A stretch of 40,051 bases of DNA from Gemmatimonadota bacterium (GCA_003221995.1 QHUR01000023.1:1-40051); one strand, 5' to 3'; counted from the stretch's first letter, positions 8,242 to 20,998 are shown. Program-made: numbers and translations. The notes: generated by a model from the sequence alone, not told the origin.

Positions 8242-8283
8242 TCTGACGTCTTCCTCGTGACGCCTTTCCCGTGACGTCTTTAG
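8242..8283. repeat. Imperfect 14-bp tandem repeat, 3 units
   Basis: tctgacgtcttcct / cgtgacgcctttcc / cgtgacgtctttag in the gap between convergent stops at 8225 and 8280. Confidence 0.6.
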
Positions 8284-9542
8284 CCTCTTATCGCCCCGGG
8301 GAATCGCGTGGGGTCGGGCGTGAACCCGGGAAACACGGCCGACAGATCCGTCGCGCCGAGATGGCGGGCGAGGACCTCGCCGAACAGGTCGCGGAAGTCC
8401 GTCGTCACCGCGAGGTCGCGGCCCTCGAAGCGGCTCGCCGGGTCGAGGCCGGGCCAGCGCCCGAGCACGCGCCCCCCGTTCACCGGTCCGCCCATCACCA
8501 GCATCGCCGTGGCGTGGCCGTGGTCCGTGCCGATGTTGCCGTTCTCACGGATCGTGCGGCCGAACTCGGACATCGTGAGCACGACGACGTCGCGCAGCCT
8601 CTCCCCGAGGTCCTGGGCGAACGCCGCGAGCCCTTGACCGAGCTCGGCGAGCCGCGCGGCGAGCTGCCCCTCGCTCGCTCCCTGGTTCACGTGCGTGTCC
8701 CACCCTGTGACGTCCGCGAAAGCCAGCTGTAAGCCCAGGTTCGCCTTAATGAGCTGCGCGATTTGCTGCAGCGAGCGCCCCAGCCGGCCGCGCGGATAGT
8801 CCGCGTCGTGGTCGGGCCGATACTGCGCTGGGTTCGCCTGCTGCAGCAGCTGTACGGCCTCGAAGGCCTCCTGCGAGGACGACGACAGCAGGCCCGTCGC
8901 CGAGCCGGCGTACAGCTCCTCGAAGGCGCGGGTGAGGCGGTCGCGCGCCGCTTCTTGGGGCGCGCGCAGCCCGAACGCCTGCAGGTCGTCGATCGCGAGC
9001 GACGGAGCCGACCCCGCGAGGATGCGGGGGAGCTGAGGTCCGAAGGCGACCGCGCGGAAGGGCGTGTCGTCGTGCTCCCGATCGTGCTGGCAGTAGCGGT
9101 TGAGCCAGCCGTCCGTGGTGGACTTCGCGCCCGGCGTGCCCGACTCCATGTAGTCCTGCGCGTCGAAGTGGCTGCGCGTGGAGTCGGGCGAGCCTACGGC
9201 GTGGATCACGCCGAGGCTCTTGTTGTCCCACAGGGGCTTGAGCGCGGCGAGCCGCGGGTGCAGGCCGAAGTGTCCGTCCAGATCGACCACCTCGCTCGCC
9301 GGCACGGCGATGCGGGGCCGTTCCCGGTAATAGAGCGACTCACCGTGCGGCACGACCATGTTGAGGCCATCCACGGCGCCGCGCTGGAAGAGGCAGACGA
9401 GAATCGGGCGGTCGGAGGCGGCAAGGGGCGGTAAGGGGTGGTAAGAGGCAAACGCGGCCCGCGCGAGGAACAGCGGGTCGAGACCCAAACTGACCAACGC
9501 TAGACCTCCCGATTTCACGAAGACGCGTCTCGAAACCGACAT
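8280..9542 (-). CDS. DUF1501 domain protein, Tat-exported
   Basis: Twin-arginine signal SRRVFVKSGGLALVSLG; DUF1501-type segments LVCLFQRGAVDGLNMVVPHG, MSEFGRTIRENGNIGTDHGHATAMLVMGG. Confidence 0.9.
   Translation of the reverse strand: MSVSRRVFVKSGGLALVSLGLDPLFLARAAFASYHPLPPLAASDRPILVCLFQRGAVDGLNMVVPHGESLYYRERPRIAVPASEVVDLDGHFGLHPRLAALKPLWDNKSLGVIHAVGSPDSTRSHFDAQDYMESGTPGAKSTTDGWLNRYCQHDREHDDTPFRAVAFGPQLPRILAGSAPSLAIDDLQAFGLRAPQEAARDRLTRAFEELYAGSATGLLSSSSQEAFEAVQLLQQANPAQYRPDHDADYPRGRLGRSLQQIAQLIKANLGLQLAFADVTGWDTHVNQGASEGQLAARLAELGQGLAAFAQDLGERLRDVVVLTMSEFGRTIRENGNIGTDHGHATAMLVMGGPVNGGRVLGRWPGLDPASRFEGRDLAVTTDFRDLFGEVLARHLGATDLSAVFPGFTPDPTRFPGAIRG
9417..9446. repeat. 10-bp tandem repeat, 3 units (GGCGGCAAGG/GGCGGTAAGG/GGTGGTAAGA), inside DUF1501 CDS
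   Basis: Direct reading; opposite orientation to the array at 9561-9600. Confidence 0.7.
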
Positions 9543-9560
9543 CGGTGTTTCCTCCCAGGC

Positions 9561-9600
9561 TACCGCCTCTTACCGCCTCCTACCGCCCCCTACCGCCTAT
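9561..9600. repeat. 10-bp tandem repeat, 4 units (TACCGCCTCT/TACCGCCTCC/TACCGCCCCC/TACCGCCTAT)
   Basis: Exact 10-bp periodicity in the DUF1800-DUF1501 intergenic gap. Confidence 0.85.
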
Positions 9601-11321
9601 TGTCTTTGAAACTCCGGCCCTCCGAGCACCAGCCCCACCGCCAGCGCGCGCGCCGCGACCGGGTCGCGCGCGTCCGCCAACTCGTCGCGGATCACGCGTC
9701 TCGTGTTGTCGGACATGGTGCCCCCGAGGATACCGTCGTTCACCGCGGCGATGAGCTGCTCGGCGTCCCCGGTTGCGGGAGCCACTGAGTCGAGGGCGAC
9801 CGTAACCCCCGGGAGCCTGCCGGCAGCGAGCGCGACGGCCACGTTCATGCGGTCGAGCAAGGCGCCGCTGTTCACCCAGGCCTCCTCCCGTTCGGGGTAC
9901 CCGTCCGGCGCGACGTGGCGATAGAGGGGCTGGCCGAGCCGCGCCACGACCTGCGCCAGTCGGGGCGTCGTATCCGGGTCGCCACCCACGGCGCGCACGG
10001 CACTCACGACGAACTCGAGCGGCGTCTTCACCTTGGCCCCGATGTTCTGGGGCGCCCAGAAGTCGGGTCCGCGCACGATCGCCCGCACGACTTCTCGTAT
10101 GTCGCCGCTCGAGCGCTTCCAGGCGGCGACGGCGTCATCCACGCAGCCGTCGGGTGGCTCGTCGTTCACGAGCCGCTGGCACAGCTTGCGGCTCACGTGG
10201 TGCATGGTAGCGGGGAGGCTCGCGAGCAGCTTCAGCAGCCGGACGCCCTCGTCCATCCCGTGGCCCGCCGGGAACCTGACGCCCAGGACCGTCTTCTCAC
10301 CGTAGTCGTGCGCCCAATCGTGGAACTCGAAGCCGCCCCCTTGCTGCGGCCGCTTGATGCTCCACCCGGTGAGGATCCGCGCGACCTCGATAACGTCCTG
10401 CTGGGTGTAGCCCCCGTCTACCCCCAGTGTGTGCAGCTCGAGCAGCTCGCGTGCGTAGTTCTCGTTGATCCCCTTGGGCATCCGCTCGAGGGCGCGCCGT
10501 CGCTGGGAGTCGGCTCGCGCAGGCTCCTGCGAAAACCCCGGGACGTAGCGGCCACGGCTGAACCAGGGACGCGCCTGGAGGCGGGGCCGCGTGAGGGCAG
10601 GCGGCATGGAACCGGGGGCCACGCTCTGCCAGTTATCGAGATAAAAGAGCAGCGCCGGGCTGCGAGCCGCGGCGATCAGCAGGTCCGCGAACTTCCCGAG
10701 CGCGCGTGGGCGGAGCGTCTCCTCGATGTAGGACGGCACGAGCACCCGATCGGCGCCCTTGCCGAAGAACACGTTGAAGTGATTGACCCAGAAGTCGACC
10801 ATGACCTCGTACAGCTGGCGTCGGGACAGCGCGGCACGCACTACGACGAGCTGCTCCACCTCCCCGGCGAGCCGGCGGCCCATCTGCTCCTCCTTGCCGC
10901 CCTGCTGGGCTGGCGGGGCCAGGCTGTCCATCGCGGGCTGTCGGGCGCCCTGCTGCTGACGCTCCCGCCGCTCCTCGCTCGCCGCGGCGTACAGGCGGGC
11001 AAGGTCCCCCGAGTCGTAGCGCAGGATGCGGAACGTGGCGGCCCGCTCGGCCGCAAGCCGATCGTCGAGCTGGTCGGGGGAGAGTTGGCGGTCGATCCAG
11101 TTCATCACGCCGCCCGCCGCCACCGCGTCTACCTCTCCCGGCCGGGGGCCATAGGCGAGGCGGTCGAGAGCGTGCAGTGCGGAGTCGTGGGGCGACAGCT
11201 GAGCGGACAGCCGGACGGTCGGACAGACGGACTGGAACGCCAAGACGAGCGCAGCGAGCACGTGAGCTCGCCGACGCAGTCGATCCGCCCGTCCGACCGT
11301 CCGCCTGTCCGACACTTTCAT
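9597..11321 (-). CDS. DUF1800 domain protein, secreted
   Basis: LDRLAYGPRPGEVDAV, FWVNHFNVFFGKG, NENYARELLELHTLGVDGGYTQQDVIEVARILTGW are DUF1800 hallmarks. Confidence 0.93.
   Translation of the reverse strand: MKVSDRRTVGRADRLRRRAHVLAALVLAFQSVCPTVRLSAQLSPHDSALHALDRLAYGPRPGEVDAVAAGGVMNWIDRQLSPDQLDDRLAAERAATFRILRYDSGDLARLYAAASEERRERQQQGARQPAMDSLAPPAQQGGKEEQMGRRLAGEVEQLVVVRAALSRRQLYEVMVDFWVNHFNVFFGKGADRVLVPSYIEETLRPRALGKFADLLIAAARSPALLFYLDNWQSVAPGSMPPALTRPRLQARPWFSRGRYVPGFSQEPARADSQRRRALERMPKGINENYARELLELHTLGVDGGYTQQDVIEVARILTGWSIKRPQQGGGFEFHDWAHDYGEKTVLGVRFPAGHGMDEGVRLLKLLASLPATMHHVSRKLCQRLVNDEPPDGCVDDAVAAWKRSSGDIREVVRAIVRGPDFWAPQNIGAKVKTPLEFVVSAVRAVGGDPDTTPRLAQVVARLGQPLYRHVAPDGYPEREEAWVNSGALLDRMNVAVALAAGRLPGVTVALDSVAPATGDAEQLIAAVNDGILGGTMSDNTRRVIRDELADARDPVAARALAVGLVLGGPEFQRQ
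11204..11311. repeat. Inverted repeat, 22-bp arms (20/22 match), within DUF1800 5' coding region
   Basis: Arm 1 11204-11225 CGGACAGCCGGACGGTCGGACA; reverse complement of arm 2 (11290-11311) CGGACAGGCGGACGGTCGGACG. Confidence 0.85.
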
Positions 11322-11362
11322 GCGGTTATATTGACGAGTCGCCCCGGAAGGAAGTTAAGCGC

Positions 11363-13252
11363 GTGACCGCGCCGCCGCGTTTTGTCTCCCACGGGATGCT
11401 GCCCAGGCCCCGGAGCCTCCTGACGCAGGGGGACGGCAAGCCGCCCAGCTGGGGGCAGCGGCTGGAAGCGCTCAAGTACGTCCCGCCCCTGCTGCGACTC
11501 GTGTACCAGACGCACCGCGGCTACACGGTCGCGATCCTCGCGCTCCGCGCCATCCGGTCCTTCGTCCCCCTGGCGGTCCTATGGATCGGCAAGCTCATCA
11601 TTGATGGCGTGATCGGGGCTGCTCGGGCGCGCACCGGGGGTGTGCCCGTGGACTGGTGGCACCTCGGCGGGCTCGTGGGGCTCGAGCTCGGGATCGCCAT
11701 CGCCGGCGAGGGGCTGGCGCGGCTCTCCTCGCTACTCGAGAGCCTCTTGGGCGACCTGTTCTCGAATCGCATCAGCGTGCGCCTGATGCAGCACGCCGCC
11801 ACGCTCGACCTCGCCCAGTACGAGGACGCCGAGACCTACGATCATCTGGAGCGCGCCCGGCGCCAGACCGTGGGGCGGCTCGGGCTGATCGCCCTGCTGC
11901 TCTCCACGGTGCAAGACTTCGTCACGCTGGTCCTGCTCGGGGGGGTCCTGGCGGTGCAGCTGCCGTGGCTCCTGCTGCTGCTGGTCGTCGCCGTGCTGCC
12001 GTCGTTCCTGGGCGAGACGCACTACGCGGCCCTCGGGTACTCGCTGCTCTTCCAGTGGACTCCCGAGCGGCGCTTGCTCGATTACCTGCGCTACGTCGGT
12101 GCATCGGACGAGATGGCGAAGGAGGTGAAACTCTTCAGCCTCTCCGACTTCCTCGTCGGCCGCTACGCGAAACTGTCCGACGAGTTCTACGAGGCGAACA
12201 AGCGACTGGCGGTGAAGCGCAACCTGGTCTCGACGCTGTTCGTGACGATCGGGACGTTGGGCTACTACGGCGCCTACGCCGTCACGATCTACCTCACCGT
12301 CTTGGGACGGTTCACCATCGGCGCGCTGACGTTCCTCGCCGGGTCCTTTCGTCAGAGCCGCGACCTGATCCAGCGCATCCTGCTCTCCGTGTCGCAGGTG
12401 TTCGAGCAGAGCCTGTACCTCTCGGACCTATTCACCTTCTTCGACGTGCGGCCCCGGGTCACGTCGCAGCCCGGCGCGCGGCCCGTGCCCGCGCCGATCC
12501 GGCGCGGGTTCGAGTTCCAGGGCGTCGGCTTCCGCTATCCCGGGTCGGATCGCTGGGCCGTGCGGAACCTCGGGTTCCTGTTCGAGCCGGGCGAGCGCAT
12601 CGCCCTCGTGGGCGAGAACGGGGCGGGAAAGACGACGCTGGTGAAGCTGCTCGCACGCCTGTACGACCCCGATGAAGGGCGCATCCTGCTCGACGGCGTG
12701 GACCTGCGGGAGTACGATCTGGACAGTCTGCGCCGGAACATCGGCGTGATCTTCCAGGACTTCGTGCGCTACGACTTCGTCCTGAAAGAGAACATCGGCG
12801 TGAGCCAGGTGGACGCGCTGAGCGACGAGGCACGGGTGCGCGAGGCGGCGCGGCGCAGCCTGGCGGACTCGGTGGCCGCCCGTCTCGAGCGGGGCTACGA
12901 CCAGATGCTGGGCCGGCGGTTCGACGGGGGCGTCGACCTGTCGGGGGGCGAGTGGCAGAAGGTGGCGCTGGGCCGGGCGTACATGCGCGAGGCGCAGGTT
13001 CTGATCCTTGACGAGCCCACGGCGTCGCTCGACGCGCGGGCGGAGTACGAGGTGTTCCTGCGGTTCGCGGAGCTCACGCAGGGCCGAATGGCCGTGCTGA
13101 TCTCGCACCGCTTCTCCACGGTGCGGATGGCCGACCGCATTCTCGTGCTGCAAGGGGGCGAGCTGGTGGACCAGGGGACGCACGGGGAGCTCGTGGCGCG
13201 AGGCGGGCTGTACGCCGAGTTGTTCTCCCTCCAGGCGGCCGGGTACCGCTGA
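11363..13252 (+). CDS. ABC transporter, fused permease/ATP-binding (exporter type)
   Basis: Walker A GENGAGKTT, signature LSGGEWQKVALGRA, Walker B VLILDEPTASLD, multi-TM N-terminus. Start chosen at GTG after GGAAGG; the ORF opens further upstream. Confidence 0.92.
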   Translation: MTAPPRFVSHGMLPRPRSLLTQGDGKPPSWGQRLEALKYVPPLLRLVYQTHRGYTVAILALRAIRSFVPLAVLWIGKLIIDGVIGAARARTGGVPVDWWHLGGLVGLELGIAIAGEGLARLSSLLESLLGDLFSNRISVRLMQHAATLDLAQYEDAETYDHLERARRQTVGRLGLIALLLSTVQDFVTLVLLGGVLAVQLPWLLLLLVVAVLPSFLGETHYAALGYSLLFQWTPERRLLDYLRYVGASDEMAKEVKLFSLSDFLVGRYAKLSDEFYEANKRLAVKRNLVSTLFVTIGTLGYYGAYAVTIYLTVLGRFTIGALTFLAGSFRQSRDLIQRILLSVSQVFEQSLYLSDLFTFFDVRPRVTSQPGARPVPAPIRRGFEFQGVGFRYPGSDRWAVRNLGFLFEPGERIALVGENGAGKTTLVKLLARLYDPDEGRILLDGVDLREYDLDSLRRNIGVIFQDFVRYDFVLKENIGVSQVDALSDEARVREAARRSLADSVAARLERGYDQMLGRRFDGGVDLSGGEWQKVALGRAYMREAQVLILDEPTASLDARAEYEVFLRFAELTQGRMAVLISHRFSTVRMADRILVLQGGELVDQGTHGELVARGGLYAELFSLQAAGYR

Positions 13253-13307
13253 GCCGGCGGGCGCGCGTCCCGATCGGCGACTATCTTTGCGGGCACGGGA
13301 GGTCACC

Positions 13308-13709
13308 ATGCGTACGGTCGCTCTGACGGTGCTCAGCCTGTCCGTCGCGACGCTTGCGGGCCAGTCGCCGCTCGCGGCCCAGCGGCGGAGCAACGTGCTC
13401 ACGGCTGAAGAGATCCAGCGCGCGAACGTCGGCTCGGCGTACGACGCAGTCCAGACGCTGCGGCCACGCTGGCTCCAAGGGCCCAGAGAACTCAACCGCA
13501 TGCCGGCCAACGCGGAGGAGTCGGCTCGCCCGGCCGGAATCTCCGTCTACGTCAACGAGGTGTCCATGGGCGGCGTGGACTATCTCAAGGAGATCCCGGC
13601 CGCCATGGTCGTCGAGCTGCGTTGGTTGAGCTCGTTCGAGGCCGCTAACCGCTTCGGTCCCACGGAGGGCCAGTCCGCGATCGTCGTCACGCTGAAGCGT
13701 GGGGGCTAG
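13308..13709 (+). CDS. Small secreted protein, plug-like
   Basis: Signal peptide MRTVALTVLSLSVATLAGQSPLAAQ; LTAEEIQRANVGSAYDAVQTLRPRWL...VYVNEVSMGGVDYLKEIPAAMVVELRWL resembles TonB plug-like short proteins. Confidence 0.6.
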   Translation: MRTVALTVLSLSVATLAGQSPLAAQRRSNVLTAEEIQRANVGSAYDAVQTLRPRWLQGPRELNRMPANAEESARPAGISVYVNEVSMGGVDYLKEIPAAMVVELRWLSSFEAANRFGPTEGQSAIVVTLKRGG

Positions 13710-13716
13710 CGCCGAG

Positions 13717-14493
13717 CTAGCTTCCCGTCGAAAACCGCACGGCGCCGAGCTCAACGAGCCCGTGCAGCGTCTGCTCCAGTTCGCGGACCTCAAGCCCCGC
13801 GCCGTGGGCCAGCTCCGCCAGTGTCTTGCGCCCATCGGCGAGCCCGAGCAGGGCTGCGATCGCGTCCGTGCTGCGCGCGACCGCCACGCGCCCGCGCGGT
13901 GAGCGTGCCACGAGCAGTTTGGTGGACCGTGCCGGCGCCTGTGGTACCTCGCTCCACGGCCGCAACAGCTCCGGCAGCACGACCGGCAGATCGTAGGCGA
14001 GCTCCAGGAGGACCGTCCCCTCCACCGTTTCCGGCGCGGACCATTCCCCACTCCCCGCGCCTTCGCCCCCGCTCTCCGGATCCTCTCTCCAGATCCGCGG
14101 ACCCGCTTCCACGACCATCATCGCCGCCTCGTACTGCAGCAGGTCTCCGAGATAACGGATCGCGGCGCCCGCATCGCCCACGTGAGTGACGACGAGCTGC
14201 GCCACGGCCTTCGCCGTCTCCCGGCTGCCGAGCACGATCGACGGCACCAGGGCCTCGAAGCCCGGGCGCGTGAGGACCGCTTCGGGCCTGCGACCCGTGA
14301 CCCGGGCGAGCGCCCGGGAGTACTTGAAGAAGTGGACGACGCGCTCATGGTAGAAGTGCCGCGCGAGGAAGCGCGCGAACCGCTCGACGCGATCGGGGTC
14401 GGCGAGGCCGCGGGTGCGCCACGCGGCGGACTTCCGGTAGGGCGCGTCGGCGAGCGCGCGGATGACGTCGTCCTGCAGTGCGCGGTCGCTCAC
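13717..14493 (-). CDS. DUF2063/HvfC-like partner protein of the MNIO enzyme (putative precursor-recognition subunit)
   Basis: GTG at 14493 overlaps MNIO stop (GTGA). N-terminal helical region and C-terminal winged-helix-like TKLLVARSPRGRVAVARSTDAIAALLGLADGRKTLAELAHGAGLEVRELEQTLHGLVELGAVRF. Family call is by eye. Confidence 0.6.
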   Translation of the reverse strand: MSDRALQDDVIRALADAPYRKSAAWRTRGLADPDRVERFARFLARHFYHERVVHFFKYSRALARVTGRRPEAVLTRPGFEALVPSIVLGSRETAKAVAQLVVTHVGDAGAAIRYLGDLLQYEAAMMVVEAGPRIWREDPESGGEGAGSGEWSAPETVEGTVLLELAYDLPVVLPELLRPWSEVPQAPARSTKLLVARSPRGRVAVARSTDAIAALLGLADGRKTLAELAHGAGLEVRELEQTLHGLVELGAVRFSTGS

Positions 14494-15278
14494 AGCGTTT
14501 CCCGGATCCGCTCCACGCTCCGGAAGAGCGCCTCCGCCGTGAGTGAAGGCGAGAATGCGTCGAACGTCACCGCCTTCGCCTGAGGGCACCGCGTGACCGC
14601 GTGGGCCAGGAACCCGAGCATCTCGTCCGACGGCTCGGCCGGTGCGATCCAGGGGCCCGCGAGGTCCTTGTCCTCCTCCACGCCCGCTACGTGCAGCTCC
14701 ACGACGCGGTCGAGCGGAAACTCGGCGAGCCAGCGCTCGGGCTTCAGGCCACGGTAATGTGCTTCGAGCCACACGTGGGGCAGATCGAGCAGGAACCCCG
14801 TCTGCGTGGCGTCGAAGAAGCGCCGCAGCCACACCGGTTCAGGCAGCTGGCTGGCCCGCACGTCGAAGAAGCCGGGGATGTTCTCCATCACGAGCGGCTG
14901 ATCGAGCCGCGCCCTCAGGGCGTTGGCGTTGCGGACGAAGCGCTCCAGGAAATCCTCGCTGTAGAGCGGAGGAAAGACGTAGTTCAGGTTGTACGTTCCG
15001 TCCACCGTGTGGAGGCACTGGAAGTGCTCAGCGACCCACGGTGTGCGATACAACTCGGCGAGCGTGCGGGCTCGCTCGATCGAGCGGTCGTCGAGTGGCT
15101 CGGAGAGCTGCCCCAGGTAGTCGTGCAGCAGCAGGGTGTAGCGTGCGCGGATCGCGGGCCAGTGGGGATCGCCAGCCGCCGGCGGGTCGGCCATCGCGAG
15201 GTGGTCGATGCCGTCCGCGCGGACGAGTTCCGCGCCGAGGTGGGGGTTGTAGAAGGCGCCGATCATTAAGGCAGCCAT
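14490..15278 (-). CDS. DUF692 / MNIO-family multinuclear non-heme iron oxidase
   Basis: ATG at 15278 overlaps AKR stop (TAATG). Motifs LLLHDYLGQL, WVAEHFQCL, LVMENIPGFF, GFLLDLPHVWLEAHYRG, PLDRVVELHVAG match DUF692/MbnB-type ligand segments. Confidence 0.85.
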   Translation of the reverse strand: MAALMIGAFYNPHLGAELVRADGIDHLAMADPPAAGDPHWPAIRARYTLLLHDYLGQLSEPLDDRSIERARTLAELYRTPWVAEHFQCLHTVDGTYNLNYVFPPLYSEDFLERFVRNANALRARLDQPLVMENIPGFFDVRASQLPEPVWLRRFFDATQTGFLLDLPHVWLEAHYRGLKPERWLAEFPLDRVVELHVAGVEEDKDLAGPWIAPAEPSDEMLGFLAHAVTRCPQAKAVTFDAFSPSLTAEALFRSVERIRETL

Positions 15279-16390
15279 TACCCGGCCATGCCCTCGTCTG
15301 CGAGCTGGTCCACGAACACCTTCACCTGCGCTGCGATCATGGGCTTGTCGCCGCGATCGGTCCACGCCGCCGCGATGGCTTCATAGGCGGTGCGGCCGTC
15401 CAGCCGCTCGACGATGAAGCGCTCCCGCTCGCCCCACGTCGTGGCCTGCCGCATCGCTGCGTCCGTCGCGCGCGCCGGGCGGAACACGTCCGCGACGATC
15501 GCGTCGATCTCAGCCAAGGTGGCGGGTGTCAGGCGTCGGGCGCCGGAGAGATTCTCATCCACCTGACTCGCGTTGCGTGCGCCGGCTAGGACGATGCCGA
15601 CGCCCGGCTGGGCGAGGACCCAGGCGAGCGCCAGGGCCGGGAGAGGCAGCTCGAGCCGTTCGGCGAGGGGCCGCAGTCGCTCGACCACGCGGCGCCGCCG
15701 CTCGAACTCCTGGCCCCGGAACCAATAGATGTTGCGTCGGTGGTCGCCGGCCGGGAACTCGGGCGGCTTGCCATACGTGCCGGCGAGGAGTCCCGAGGCG
15801 AGCGGCCGGTAGGCGAGGAAGGCGAGCCCGCGCTCGCGGCACAGCGGCAGCTCGCGCTGCTCCACGTCGCGGTCGAACAGGTTGTAGGGCCCCTGATAGC
15901 TGGCGAGCGGCGCGAGCTCCGTGGCACGGGCGATCTGCAGATGGGTCGCGTTGCACAACCCGATCGCCAGGGCTTTCCCTTCCTCCTGGAGCTTGAGCAG
16001 CCCCTCGAGCGACCACTCCCAGCGCCCCAGTGCTTCGTGCAGCTGGATGAGGTCCACGTAAGCGCTCGCGAGGCGGCGCAGCGACCCCTCGAGGGAGGCG
16101 CGGGGATCGTCGTGAGGGCCGACCTTCGTCGCGATCGCGACGCGCTCGCGGTGCGCCCGGAGCGCGCGGCCCAGCAGGCGCTCGGACTCGCCGTCGCCGT
16201 AGGTCGGCGCCGTGTCGAAGAACGTGATGCCGCGCTCGAGCGCGCGCCGAATCGCGGATTCGCGTTCGGCCGCATCGCCCGTCGCTCCCCAACTCCGGCC
16301 TCCTACCGCCCACGCGCCGAACCCGAGGCGCGGCTCGGACGTTATGAAACGCGGAGGGGGCCCGACGTCAGGCCGGGCCCCCGGGCGCAT
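15278..16390 (-). CDS. Aldo/keto reductase
   Basis: RLGFGAWAVGGRSWG, ITFFDTAPTYGDGESERLLGRAL (Asp/Tyr), VAIATKVG (Lys), LIQLHEALG (His). ATG 12 nt after the 30-aa ORF stop, with GGGAG upstream. Confidence 0.92.
   Translation of the reverse strand: MRPGARPDVGPPPRFITSEPRLGFGAWAVGGRSWGATGDAAERESAIRRALERGITFFDTAPTYGDGESERLLGRALRAHRERVAIATKVGPHDDPRASLEGSLRRLASAYVDLIQLHEALGRWEWSLEGLLKLQEEGKALAIGLCNATHLQIARATELAPLASYQGPYNLFDRDVEQRELPLCRERGLAFLAYRPLASGLLAGTYGKPPEFPAGDHRRNIYWFRGQEFERRRRVVERLRPLAERLELPLPALALAWVLAQPGVGIVLAGARNASQVDENLSGARRLTPATLAEIDAIVADVFRPARATDAAMRQATTWGERERFIVERLDGRTAYEAIAAAWTDRGDKPMIAAQVKVFVDQLADEGMAG
16356..16382 (-). promoter_or_regulatory. GC-rich stem-loop (9-bp perfect stem, 9-nt loop) over the first codons of the AKR gene; possible attenuator or translational brake
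   Basis: GGGGGCCCG (16356-16364) and CGGGCCCCC (16374-16382). No U-tract follows on the transcribed strand. Confidence 0.5.
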
Positions 16391-16402
16391 CGAACCGCTC
16401 CC

Positions 16403-16495
16403 TCAGGAGTGGCAGGACGGCTGGAGCTCGCTCGTCTCGACGATCTCGGGACGATGACAGCTGGGGACGAGTTCCGTGGTCTCGATGATCTGCAT
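16403..16495 (-). CDS. Putative MNIO RiPP precursor peptide, MQIIETTELVPSCHRPEIVETSELQPSCHS
   Basis: AGGAGG-5 nt-ATG, upstream TTGACG-17-TAGGAT, two internal repeats (9/12 identical residues, 6 of those 9 with different synonymous codons), first gene of the AKR-MNIO-partner operon. Confidence 0.82.
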   Translation of the reverse strand: MQIIETTELVPSCHRPEIVETSELQPSCHS

Positions 16496-16590: not shown

Positions 16591-17529
16591 ATGATCCCAA
16601 CTCAGACTCTGCTGACAGAGAACGCTCTCGCCGAGGAATTCGTTTCCGCGTTCCGGGAGCGGCGCCTCGCCGAGAAGTTCTTTTACTGGTTTCCGCTGTC
16701 GGTGCGGGCCTGGCTCGCCCTCTGCTCCGACGGCGCGTACCGCAACTACGTGCGCTCCCGCTCGCTCATCGCGCGCTCGGCCGACGCTCTCGCGCGGCAC
16801 TTCGCCCCCGGCCCGCTCGAGGTGGTGAGCCTCGGCGCGGGCCAGGGTGACAAGGACCTGCTGCTGCTGGAGGCGCTGCGCGCGCACGGCGTGCGCGTCG
16901 CCTACCTCCCGGTCGACACCAGCCAGGCGCTGCTCGAGCTGGCGTGCGGCGGCGCGCTCGCAGCGCACTTCGTGGCGCACGGGATCAAAGCGGACTTCGC
17001 GCGCCCCGACCACCTCGCCGCGCTGGCGCCCGATCCCGAGACGCCGGCTCGCCTCGTGCTGCTGCTCGGGAATACGCTCGGCGCGTTCGACCCGATCGCC
17101 GAGGCGCGAGAGCTGCGCGGCTTGCTGCGCCCCGGCGACCTGCTCATCGTGGACGGCGAGCTGTACGGCGACGAGACCACCCTCGCCGGCTACGACAATC
17201 CGCTCAACCGGCGCTTCGCATGGGCCCCGCTGCACGCCGTCGGGATCCGGGACTCGGACGGCGAGCTGGTGTTCGAGGCCCGAGACGACACACGCCTCCC
17301 GGGTCTCCACGTCATCGCCAAGCATTTCCGTGCCGGGCGCCCCGTCGCAGCGTTGATGGGCGGAGAAGAGCTGCGCCTCGACGCGGGCGAGCGCCTCGCC
17401 ATGAGCCACTCCTACAAGTACGCTCCGGAGACCCTGCTCCGGATTCTCGGGGACGTGGGGCTCGCCGTGCGGTGGCAGGGCACGAGCGACGATCGCCGGT
17501 TCCTGATGGCGCTGGCCGGACCCGCGTGA
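16591..17529 (+). CDS. EgtD-like (Methyltransf_33 / DUF2260) SAM-dependent methyltransferase
   Basis: VVSLGAGQGDKDLLLLEAL, YLPVDTSQALLELA, LLLGNTLGAFDPIAEARELRGLLRPGDLLIVDGEL, C-terminal SHSYKYAPETLLRILGDVGL. Confidence 0.8.
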   Translation: MIPTQTLLTENALAEEFVSAFRERRLAEKFFYWFPLSVRAWLALCSDGAYRNYVRSRSLIARSADALARHFAPGPLEVVSLGAGQGDKDLLLLEALRAHGVRVAYLPVDTSQALLELACGGALAAHFVAHGIKADFARPDHLAALAPDPETPARLVLLLGNTLGAFDPIAEARELRGLLRPGDLLIVDGELYGDETTLAGYDNPLNRRFAWAPLHAVGIRDSDGELVFEARDDTRLPGLHVIAKHFRAGRPVAALMGGEELRLDAGERLAMSHSYKYAPETLLRILGDVGLAVRWQGTSDDRRFLMALAGPA

Positions 17530-18257
17530 GCGCGGTCCTCGAGGTGCGGGGGGCGCGGTACGTCCTCCCGGAGGGCCGCGTGCTGGTCGCGGACGTGTCC
17601 TTCGGCGTCGCGGCCGGGGAAACGCTGGTGCTGCTCGGCCGCAGCGGGTCGGGCAAGACCACGACGCTCAAGCTGATCAATCGCCTGCTCGAGCCCACGG
17701 CGGGCGAGATCCGGGTCGCCGGACAGCTCACGCACGCGCTCGAGGCCACGCGGCTGCGCCGCGGCATCGGCTATGTGATCCAGGAGATCGGGCTGTTCCC
17801 GCACTTCACGGTCGAGCGAAACGTCGGTCTGGTGCCGCGGCTCGAGGGGTGGCCCGCCGAGCGCATCGCCGCGCGCGTGCGCGAGCTCCTCACCCTGGTC
17901 GGTCTCGATCCCGGCGTGTTCGGCGCGCGCTACCCGCACGAGCTGTCGGGCGGGCAGCGCCAGCGGGTCGGCGTCGCGCGGGCGCTGGCCGCCGATCCGG
18001 CGCTCCTCCTGCTCGATGAGCCGTTCGGGGCGCTCGATCCCATCACGCGCGTCGAGCTGCAGCGCGAGTTCCTCGCGCTGCAACGGCGTCTCGGCAAGGC
18101 GATCGTCTTCGTGACGCACGACGTGCGCGAGGGGCTGCTGCTCGGCAGCGCGATCGGGCTGCTGCAGGAGGGCCGGATCGTGTTCCTCGGGACGCCGGAC
18201 GAGTTCCGGCGCTCGGAGCATCCCGCCTGTCGAGCCTTCCTCGCCGCCGCGGGATGA
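17526..18257 (+). CDS. OpuC/ProV-type (betaine-like) ABC transporter ATP-binding protein
   Basis: Walker A GRSGSGKTTT, LSGGQRQRVGVARALA, LLLLDEPFGALDP, KAIVFVTHDVREGLLLGSAIGLLQEGRIV. GTG overlaps upstream stop by 4 bp. Confidence 0.9.
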   Translation: MSAVLEVRGARYVLPEGRVLVADVSFGVAAGETLVLLGRSGSGKTTTLKLINRLLEPTAGEIRVAGQLTHALEATRLRRGIGYVIQEIGLFPHFTVERNVGLVPRLEGWPAERIAARVRELLTLVGLDPGVFGARYPHELSGGQRQRVGVARALAADPALLLLDEPFGALDPITRVELQREFLALQRRLGKAIVFVTHDVREGLLLGSAIGLLQEGRIVFLGTPDEFRRSEHPACRAFLAAAG

Positions 18258-18261
18258 TCGC

Positions 18262-18900
18262 ATGAATCTCTTCACGTTCTACGCGCACAACTCCCGCGAG
18301 GCCCTGACCCTCATCGGCCAGCATCTCTACCTGGTCGCTGTCTCCACGGGCATCGCGATGACGGTGGGGGTGCCGGGCGGCATCCTGCTCACGCGACGGC
18401 CGGCATGGCGCGGCCCGGTGCTCGGGCTCGCCAACGTGTTGCAGACGATCCCGAGCCTCGCGCTGTTCGGCTTCCTCATTCCGCTGCCCTTCATCGGGGG
18501 GATCGGCGCGCGTACGGCGATCGTGGCGCTCGTGGTGTACGCGCTGCTGCCGATCGTCCGCAACACCTACACGGGGATCGCGGGCGTCGATCCCGCGGTG
18601 CGCGAGGCGGGACGGGGAATGGGGATGACCGACGGGCAGCTGCTCGCGATGGTGGAGCTGCCGCTCGCGGCCAGGGTGATCCTCGCCGGGATCCGGGTCG
18701 CCACGGTCGTGAGTGTGGGCACGGCCACGATCGCGGGGGCCATCGGTGCCGGGGGATTGGGCGTCTACATCTTCCGCGGCGCGGACATGGTGAACAACAC
18801 GCTGATCCTGGCCGGGGCGCTCCCCGCAGCCCTGATGGCGCTCGCGGCCGACGGTCTGCTCGGTCTTGCCGAGCGGAAGCTGGCGTGGCACGGACGGTGA
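18262..18900 (+). CDS. OpuC/ProW-type ABC transporter permease
   Basis: VSTGIAMTVGVPGGILLTRRPAW, LANVLQTIPSLALFGFLIPL, LLPIVRNTYTGIAGVDPAVREAGRGMGMTDGQLLAMVELPLA, ATIAGAIGAGGLGVYIFRG. Confidence 0.93.
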   Translation: MNLFTFYAHNSREALTLIGQHLYLVAVSTGIAMTVGVPGGILLTRRPAWRGPVLGLANVLQTIPSLALFGFLIPLPFIGGIGARTAIVALVVYALLPIVRNTYTGIAGVDPAVREAGRGMGMTDGQLLAMVELPLAARVILAGIRVATVVSVGTATIAGAIGAGGLGVYIFRGADMVNNTLILAGALPAALMALAADGLLGLAERKLAWHGR

Positions 18901-19772
18901 CGGGCGGTCGCTGGCTGGCGCTCGCGTGCGGCGCCGTGCTGGCAGTGGGCTGCGGTCGCCCTGACCGCATCGTCGTGGGGGCCAAGAACTTCACCGAGTC
19001 GGATCTCCTCGCCGAGCTCGTCGCCCAGCAGATCGAGCGCCGCACAGGGTTGGCGGTCGAGCGGCGGCTGCATTTGGGCGGGACCTTCGTGTGCCATCGC
19101 GCCATCACCGCCGGGAAGATCGATGCGTACGTTGAGTACACCGGAACGGCGCTCACCGCGATCCTGAACCACGCGCCGCTCGGGGATCGGGACAGCGTCT
19201 ATCGCGCGGTCGCCGCCGAGTATGCGCAGCGCTTCGGGCTCACCTGGGGCAAGCCGTTCGGGTTCAACAACACGTTCGCGATCGTCGTGCGCCGGCGGGA
19301 CGCCGAGCGGTACGGCCTGCGGAGGATCTCCGACATCGCGCCCGTCGCGCCCCGCTGGAAGGCGGCGTTCGGGTACGAGTTCCTGGAGCGCGCGGACGGC
19401 TTCGCCGGGCTGGCGCGGGTGTACGGCCTGAGGTTCGCCGCGCCGCCGACGGCGATGGCGCTCGGCCTCACCTACCGCGCCCTCGCCGACGGCAAGGCGG
19501 ACCTGATCGCGGGCAACTCCACCGACGGCCTCATCCAGGCGCTGGACCTCGTGGCCTTGGAAGACGACCGGCACTACTTCCCGCCGTACGAGGCGGCGCC
19601 GGTGGCGCGCGCCGACCTGCTGGGGCGCCATCCTCAAATCGCCCGTGCGCTGGACGAGCTGGGCGGGAAGATCTCGGACGACGCGATGCGGCGGCTCAAC
19701 GCGCTCGCGGACGTGGAGCACCAGGACGTCGCGGCCATCGCGCGCGAGTGGCTCGCCCGGACCCTGCCGTGA
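18897..19772 (+). CDS. OpuC/OsmX-type substrate-binding lipoprotein
   Basis: Lipobox LAVGC; IVVGAKNFTESDLLAELVAQQIE, YVEYTGTALTAILNH, LADGKADLIAGNSTDGLIQALDLVALEDDRHYFPPYEAAPV. Start overlaps permease stop (GTGA). Confidence 0.9.
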   Translation: MTGGRWLALACGAVLAVGCGRPDRIVVGAKNFTESDLLAELVAQQIERRTGLAVERRLHLGGTFVCHRAITAGKIDAYVEYTGTALTAILNHAPLGDRDSVYRAVAAEYAQRFGLTWGKPFGFNNTFAIVVRRRDAERYGLRRISDIAPVAPRWKAAFGYEFLERADGFAGLARVYGLRFAAPPTAMALGLTYRALADGKADLIAGNSTDGLIQALDLVALEDDRHYFPPYEAAPVARADLLGRHPQIARALDELGGKISDDAMRRLNALADVEHQDVAAIAREWLARTLP

Positions 19773-20998
19773 GCGCCCGCATCATCCGCACGTACTACGC
19801 GATCACCGCGCTCTTCAATCTCGCGATGTCCCTCATCTGGGGCATCGACACGCTGTTCAAGCTCGGCGCCGGGCTCGACATCTTCCAGGTGATGCTCACC
19901 AACGCCGCCTTCACGCTGGGCTCGATGGTGTTCGAGATTCCGACCGGCGTCGTGGCCGACACGGTGGGGCGGCGGATCTCGCTGCTCCTCTGCCTCGCCA
20001 CGCTGTTCGTCACGACGTTGCTGTACGTGGGGATCGCGTGGCGGGGCGGGGGCTTCTGGCCCTTCGCCGCGGTGTCCGTGTTTCTCGGGCTCGGCTACAC
20101 GTTCTACACCGGCGCCGTGGACGCCTGGCTCGTGGACGCGCTCAAGGCGACGGGCTACGCGGAGCCGCTCGAGCCCGTGTTCGCGCGCGGCCAAATGCTG
20201 TTCGGCGCGGGGATGCTGGTGGGCACGATCGGCGGCGGGTTGCTCGGGCAGATCCACCTGTACATCCCGTATTTCGTGCGCGCCGCCGTCGTGGTGCCGC
20301 TCTTCCTGCTCGCGTGGTTCCACATGCCGGAGCTGGGTTACACGCCGCGCACGCTGGAGCTCGGGCGGGTGCCGGCGGAAATGCGGCGCGTGTTCGTTGA
20401 GGGCATGCGCTACGGGCTCGAGCATCCGGTCGTGCGGCCGGTGATGCTCGCCTCGCTCGTGTCCATGAGCTTCATGATCTTCGGCTTCTACAGCTGGCAG
20501 CGGTACTTCCTGGACCTGCTGGGCAAGAACCTCGTGTGGGTGGACGGGGTGATCAGCTCGCTCGTCGGGCTGAGTCTCATCGCGGGGAACGCGCTGGTCG
20601 CTCCGGTGTCGCGGGTGGTGCGCACGCGGACGGGGATGCTGATGGTCTCCGTCGCGGTGCAGGCGGCGAGCGTGGTCCTGTGCGGCCTGCTGACGGACTT
20701 CTATGTGGTGGTGGCGCTCTACCTCGTGTACGGCGCGGCCGTCGGACTGGCGCTGCCGGTGAAGCAGGCCTATCTCAACGCCCACATTCCCACGGCGCAG
20801 CGCGCCACCATCATCTCGCTCGATTCGATGTTCGCCAACGCCGGGGGTGTGATGGGCCAGTCGGGCTGGGGGTGGCTCGCCCGCGTGCGCTCGATCGGCG
20901 AGGCGTGGGCATACGCCGGCGCGACCTTGCTCCTCGGCCTGCCGTTCTACTGGGTGGCGCGGCGGAACGACCGGCGGCTCGACGCCTTCTCCGCGTGA
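19769..20998 (+). CDS. MFS transporter
   Basis: About 12 hydrophobic segments; FEIPTGVVADTVGRRISLLLCL. GTG overlaps the SBP stop by 4 bp. Confidence 0.85.
   Translation: MSARIIRTYYAITALFNLAMSLIWGIDTLFKLGAGLDIFQVMLTNAAFTLGSMVFEIPTGVVADTVGRRISLLLCLATLFVTTLLYVGIAWRGGGFWPFAAVSVFLGLGYTFYTGAVDAWLVDALKATGYAEPLEPVFARGQMLFGAGMLVGTIGGGLLGQIHLYIPYFVRAAVVVPLFLLAWFHMPELGYTPRTLELGRVPAEMRRVFVEGMRYGLEHPVVRPVMLASLVSMSFMIFGFYSWQRYFLDLLGKNLVWVDGVISSLVGLSLIAGNALVAPVSRVVRTRTGMLMVSVAVQAASVVLCGLLTDFYVVVALYLVYGAAVGLALPVKQAYLNAHIPTAQRATIISLDSMFANAGGVMGQSGWGWLARVRSIGEAWAYAGATLLLGLPFYWVARRNDRRLDAFSA

Follow-up and report, generated by a model that had tools for sequence, protein, structure and literature searches.

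The window, by which we mean the whole 40,051-nt stretch of DNA from a soil-dwelling Gemmatimonadota bacterium analyzed here, carries on its minus strand four closely packed genes encoding a short peptide, an aldo/keto reductase (AKR), a multinuclear non-heme iron-dependent oxidative enzyme (MNIO; DUF692), and an MNIO partner protein. The peptide gene (16495..16403, minus strand, stop counted in) encodes the 30-aa precursor MQIIETTELVPSCHRPEIVETSELQPSCHS with two [IV]ETxELxPSCH repeats, and its stop codon lies 12 nt before the ATG of the AKR gene at 16390. The AKR gene (15278..16390) ends with a TAA at 15280-15278 that shares the sequence TAATG with the ATG of the MNIO gene (14490..15278; 262 aa), whose own stop codon, a TGA at 14492-14490, shares GTGA with the GTG start of the partner gene (13717..14493; 258 aa), which ends at 13717. 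The original prediction had described this coupled arrangement and had recognized an operon typical of ribosomally synthesized and post-translationally modified peptides (RiPPs); we confirmed the gap and both overlaps, and profile and structure comparisons agreed with the assignment of the MNIO and its partner.

Searches against Pfam and NCBIfam profiles matched the AKR to PF00248 (E = 1e-55, 189 bits) and the MNIO to PF05114 (MbnB_TglH_ChrH; E = 2.6e-24, 86 bits against a cut-off of 25). The closest named model for the MNIO was ApyH (NF050151), with 106 bits where the cut-off is 400. The partner matched ApyI weakly (NF050149; 6e-5, 22 bits, cut-off 200), as it did NGO1945_C, and its AlphaFold model (pLDDT 90), which has a C-terminal winged helix resembling a RiPP recognition element (RRE), matched TglI (8hi7_A) and NGO1945 (3dee). 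The original prediction had also made its case depend on the metal ligands of the MNIO, and those of iron sites 1 and 2 are retained: residues H52, H85, E132, D165, and H196 are invariant in 19 MNIO sequences and align with the His, His, Glu, Asp, and His of TglH (8hci) and 3bww. Through this alignment we assign them as putative iron ligands, and because they are conserved, a Cys or selenocysteine (Sec) residue would be expected to bind the diiron centre.

To place the operon among its relatives, we compared 101 genomes (that of the window and 100 relatives), sampled Gemmatimonadota more widely, and scanned a genome collection with the MNIO alignment; loci are labeled L### and genomes G### below. 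The MNIO was found at 82-100% identity in 7/101 genomes, always together with this peptide and this partner, and its clade was present in 18 of the 400 sampled Gemmatimonadota genomes. The collection scan gave 39 loci in Gemmatimonadota, Acidobacteriota, Rokuibacteriota, Planctomycetota, and Nitrospirota, and further genome sampling added L086 from an Acidobacteriota sample and L090 and L091 from the phylum of a Rokubacteria locus. In 13 Gemmatimonadota loci the precursor is near-identical across all 30 residues, with a mean pN/pS (ratio of nonsynonymous to synonymous polymorphism) of 0.20. The precursor is thus under purifying selection, which argues that the four-gene arrangement is not due to chance. 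The operon is a member of an apparently undescribed family of RiPP pathways that extends across five bacterial phyla. Within this family, one Gemmatimonadota subgroup carries an additional LssY_C-domain gene between the MNIO and the partner (L014, 9826-11013), and the gap between these two genes is equally large in L015 and a number of related loci. A second, distant MNIO with 29% identity (L017; contig C17 of G001) is present in the genome most closely related to that of the window.

The precursor motif and its in-frame TGA codons

Across the loci, the predicted precursors are ~16 to 65 residues long and consist of one to four units of the form [VI][ED]xx[EN][LV]xP[ST]-[Cys/Sec]-His. L038 has four units, L039-L042 have three (with ..PTCH-stop at the end), and L053 and L054 have two; repeated units occur in the precursors of Gemmatimonadota, Acidobacteriota, and Nitrospirota, and single units elsewhere. 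The C-termini read CHS, CH, CHQ, CHR, or UH(N), where U is Sec. This last form comes from 14 loci with an in-frame TGA (L043-L052, L055, L086, L090, and L091, of which L045 and L046 are close relatives), which lie in Acidobacteriota, Rokubacteria/Methylomirabilota, and Planctomycetota.

In 14/14 of these loci, [LV]VPT is followed by TGA, a His codon (CAC), and then either a stop codon or AAC (Asn) and a stop codon. The TGA coincides exactly with the Cys of PTCH in the homologues, a replacement seen in all 14 loci that have a visible precursor but no CH motif. As a background, a His codon follows the TGA in 4 of 176 long TGA-terminated open reading frames (ORFs) from 11 of the 14 loci. A hairpin resembling a Sec insertion sequence (SECIS) follows the TGA, its loop lying 19-26 nt beyond it in 13/14 loci; the loops are CGUGN, GUA, and GUU in Acidobacteriota and GGUC, AGGU, and GGGUA elsewhere. 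Among the seven Acidobacteriota hairpin sequences, 93% of the pair cells hold, and three pairs are changed on both sides, while in controls with the partners slid by 1-3 columns the pairing was at most 50%. The Cys-type precursors have no hairpin at a shared position. Moreover, tRNA-Sec and/or SelB were found in all 14 genomes with an in-frame TGA, and tRNA-Sec itself in 13 of them. From these sequence features, Sec is the best reading of the in-frame TGA. It would be highly unlikely that the TGA is instead an ordinary stop, with peptides that end in ..VPT and a hairpin that serves as a leader or terminator structure. The fold z-scores of the individual hairpins, which told less than the comparison of consensus and position, are mixed and weak for several single sequences, as such an explanation would have it, but it leaves unaccounted for the His codon and stop after every TGA, the exact alignment with the Cys of PTCH, and the pair changes on both sides of the hairpin.

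The shortest Sec precursors would have 16-18 residues, as in MLEVVDTVEVVPTUHN (L091) and MPEIVLVDAVELVPTUHN (L052). Sec precursors in general easily escape ordinary gene callers, since an ORF that stops at the UGA is two or three codons too short and encodes only a very small peptide. The MNIO tree requires at least two changes between Cys and Sec. Two Cys-type Nitrospirota genomes sit among the Sec rows in this tree; neither tRNA-Sec nor SelB was found in them above the cut-off, and these genomes are perhaps incomplete. This exchange of Cys and Sec in the precursor, and not the AKR, is the surprising feature of the operon family.

The divergent methyltransferase, the transporter, and the AKR

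On the plus strand, divergent from the operon, lies a gene (16591..17529) for an EgtD-like S-adenosylmethionine (SAM)-dependent methyltransferase (PF10017, 79 bits), a neighbor that is conserved across phyla. It is followed by genes for an ATP-binding cassette (ABC) transporter of the betaine/choline type, all on the same strand: a ProV-like ATPase (17526..18257) and a ChoW/ProW-like permease (18262..18900), and an OpuAC substrate-binding protein (18897..19772) that matches the structures of OpuCC/OpuBC and of the ergothioneine-binding EgtUC. A gene for a major facilitator superfamily (MFS) transporter (19748..20998, plus strand), conserved near the methyltransferase in Gemmatimonadota, comes next. 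The methyltransferase and ABC transporter genes were overlooked in the original prediction because they are encoded on the other strand.

The methyltransferase was found near the MNIO in 33/39 loci, usually together with the betaine-type ABC transporter. Among the remaining six, four run into a contig end (L031, L036, L037, and L055), one lies on a short contig (L044), and one belongs to Rokubacteria (L050). Three gene orders were seen: the methyltransferase is divergent from the operon in Gemmatimonadota, Acidobacteriales, Planctomycetota, and Nitrospirota; in other Acidobacteriota the MNIO, partner, methyltransferase, and ABC transporter genes follow one another on a single strand; and in L086 the methyltransferase and transporter genes precede those of the peptide, MNIO, and partner. 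Since the linkage is conserved while the gene order changes, the methyltransferase and the operon are likely to share a function. In the comparison of 101 genomes, methyltransferase orthologues (at least 70% identity) were present only in the seven genomes with the MNIO and in G011 and G040, whose contigs end within the AKR (with the peptide also visible) and within the methyltransferase, respectively. The methyltransferase and ABC transporter genes (16591-19772) belong to the conserved system.

The methyltransferase is not a plain EgtD. It scored 59 bits against the EgtD equivalog model, where 291 are needed, and the columns for N166 and E282, the His-recognition positions of EgtD, carry other residues and are not conserved. 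These same changes bear on the idea of a ribosomal route to a sulfur- or selenium-containing histidine betaine, in which the MNIO would shift the chalcogen from Cys or Sec to the imidazole of the neighboring His, a protease would free the modified His, the EgtD-like enzyme would methylate it, and the OpuAC transporter would handle a product resembling ergothioneine, selenoneine, or ovoselenol. The invariant Cys/Sec-His pair, the near-constant presence of a histidine methyltransferase homologue, and a transporter family that contains the ergothioneine binder EgtUC all speak for such a route. Nevertheless, we consider it quite unlikely, as the His-recognition positions are altered, the operon has no lyase or protease, and no MNIO is known to move sulfur or selenium onto His. 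Were it true, it would make the enzyme the first MNIO to act naturally on Sec, and molecules of the ergothioneine/selenoneine type would have arisen independently on a minimal scaffold peptide of 16-30 residues. Rokubacteria-type loci lack the methyltransferase, and their Sec precursor is preceded by a gene that resembles a circularly permuted ATP-grasp (L090, 8491-9876; L092, 4603-6060; below threshold in Pfam), whose product might attach an amino acid to the peptide.

In Gemmatimonadota loci the AKR gene is placed between those of the peptide and the MNIO. The original prediction suggested that the AKR could reduce a carbonyl or thiocarbonyl-type intermediate and so imply a chemically new product, a view in which the AKR is a core tailoring enzyme that defines what the MNIO pathway makes. 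Several results favor that proposal: the AKR is translationally coupled between precursor and MNIO; the predicted catalytic residues D59, Y64, K89, and H118 are invariant in 17/17 aligned full-length copies; and a literature search did not turn up an AKR in any published MNIO pathway. In addition, the AKR model, an AKR11 barrel (1pyf, TM 0.77) for which a Protein Data Bank (PDB) fold search listed AKR barrels only, has a C-terminal tail of ~65 residues, essentially helical in the model, that resembles PqqD below threshold (E = 0.0037, 18 bits against a cut-off of 23.4; two of six members match) and weakly matches the RRE-like tail of the partner (hhalign probability 21). However, conservation of the AKR beside this MNIO clade holds in Gemmatimonadota and not beyond: no locus of the clade outside that phylum has the gene in its operon. 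Within the phylum, an in-frame deletion in one genome (L016/L056) fuses the first ~14 AKR codons to the MNIO, which itself has a ~12-codon deletion with a frameshift, so that this operon is either decaying or misassembled; the AKR of L038 has an internal deletion, and that of L030 lacks the DTAPTYG segment with the catalytic Asp and Tyr. Assembly error is possible for these losses because the genomes are metagenome-assembled genomes (MAGs). Given its absence from other phyla and its deletion or damage in three Gemmatimonadota assemblies, the AKR is a lineage-specific accessory of one phylum. It is ruled out as a universal component of the pathway, and a core role for it is unlikely; the additional enzyme that stays constant is instead the EgtD-like methyltransferase. 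From its PqqD-like tail, the AKR may nonetheless act on the peptide, plausibly while this is bound through its leader.

Further genes flank the operon in the window. Downstream of the partner lies an MsbA-like ABC exporter (11177-13252, plus strand), 84-97% identical and syntenic in ~8 Gemmatimonadota loci (L019, L023, L027, L028, L031, L032, L034, and L036), which is a possible exporter of the pathway product. An unannotated 140-aa ORF (13287-13709, plus strand) faces the partner gene in convergent orientation; it is conserved, and L019 and L023 each have two copies in tandem. Genes for DUF1501 and DUF1800 proteins stand side by side at 8280-11321 on the minus strand.

Candidate chemistry and relation to known pathways

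Taken together, we consider it probable that the operon encodes a short-precursor RiPP pathway in which the MNIO and its RRE-like partner oxidize the Cys or Sec of the T-[C/U]-H motif, with the methyltransferase and transporter as parts of the pathway and the AKR as an option. The ribosome would make the peptide of one to four units, with UGA at the Cys position read as Sec in the 14 loci described above; the winged-helix domain of the partner would hold the acidic part of a unit while the iron centre of the MNIO oxidizes the Cys or Sec in each [ST]-[C/U]-H motif. Probable roles would be methylation of a product amine for the EgtD-like methyltransferase and uptake of the product for the betaine-type ABC transporter; in Gemmatimonadota the AKR, with its RRE-like tail, might contribute an optional, NADPH-dependent reduction of a carbonyl on the peptide. 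By analogy with known enzymes, the likeliest MNIO product would be a 5-thiooxazole or 5-selenooxazole: an MNIO can convert Cys to thiooxazole (PMC12668002, PMC13419390), and the radical-SAM enzyme SbtM acts on both Cys and Sec peptides, with a loss of four hydrogens from each (PMC11002830). Formation of a C-S or C-Se bond to the neighboring His competes seriously with this product. The invariant His, the presence of an EgtD homologue, and an importer with relatives that bind betaines and ergothioneine leave room for transfer of the chalcogen to His.

Several observations weigh against this interpretation. The site-3 residues N175, D242, and H244, which are essential in HvfB (PMC13419390), are not kept in the MNIO, where the Asn position is H168 and no conserved DxH follows H196; with these residues replaced, the enzyme may catalyze something other than thiooxazole formation. 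No methyltransferase lies near the Rokubacteria/Methylomirabilota loci, the lowest-energy fold of L050 is a hairpin unlike that of its relatives, and all loci are MAG contigs. Finally, most background genomes from these phyla also have Sec machinery, with tRNA-Sec in 23 of 29. We therefore rejected the Sec machinery as discriminating evidence; being common in these phyla, it is necessary but lends weak support.

If oxazoles are formed, they could also serve, with the adjacent His, to bind copper or another metal, as in bufferins and oxazolins. The established MNIO chemistry on Cys, the handling of both Cys and Sec peptides by SbtM, and the repeats of several precursors are consistent with a metallophore. 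It is a possibility that we doubt, since the precursor has no signal peptide and the operon no metal genes, iron site 3 is altered, and the betaine-type transporter and the EgtD-like enzyme would be left unexplained. Like the present operon, the bufferin and oxazolin systems (BufBC, HvfBC) pair an MNIO with a DUF2063/NGO1945-type partner on Cys motifs. Their precursors combine a signal peptide with EGKC motifs (PMC12452194), whereas the 30-aa precursor of the window has PSCH motifs (P[ST]CH in the family) and no signal-peptide-like stretch, and the MNIO site-3 residues differ from those of HvfB; by its precursor the operon falls outside this group.

Comparison with other systems gave a similar mixture of likeness and difference. 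The aminopyruvatide enzymes ApyH and ApyI are the closest named models, and they share the overlapping MNIO and partner genes and a partner with an RRE; however, the window proteins fall far under the equivalog cut-offs, ApyHI modifies a C-terminal Asp (PMC10635010) where the motif here is Cys/Sec-His, and the operon has no cytochrome P450 or cobalamin (B12)-dependent radical-SAM enzyme. The score of the MNIO and the lack of a C-terminal Asp in the precursors set the operon apart from that pathway. TglHI of the 3-thiaglutamate (pearlin) pathway resembles the present pair in the alignment of the MNIO profile with TglH, the fold of the partner, and a Cys at or near the C-terminus, but TglA receives its Cys post-translationally from Cys-tRNA, whereas here Cys or Sec is gene-encoded and followed by His. 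TglA-Sec is not turned over by TglHI and acts as an inhibitor (PMC9016710), so that a natural pair of MNIO and Sec would be new chemistry. The thio(seleno)oxazole RiPPs of SbtM also have precursors with TGA/Sec and SECIS, and the enzyme takes Cys or Sec (PMC11002830); it is a radical-SAM enzyme, and an MNIO, an EgtD-like methyltransferase, or a betaine transporter is not described for it. The ergothioneine and selenoneine pathways share the PF10017 homologue and an OpuAC/EgtUC-like binding protein, but besides the divergence from EgtD given above, no EgtB- or SenA-like enzyme is present in the operon.

A literature search, in which subscription papers were sparsely covered, found no MNIO paper with a natural Sec substrate, an EgtD-like enzyme, a CH motif, or an AKR. 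Sec RiPPs and MNIO RiPPs are each known; their combination, the Cys/Sec exchange, and the link to a methyltransferase and transporter appear to be new. The interchange occurs at the very residue that the iron enzyme should oxidize, and it offers naturally matched substrates with which to compare an MNIO on sulfur and on selenium. The family occurs in uncultured bacteria from soil and groundwater. It points to an undiscovered metabolite that contains selenium or sulfur and is tied to a methyltransferase of the ergothioneine type and an importer of the betaine type.

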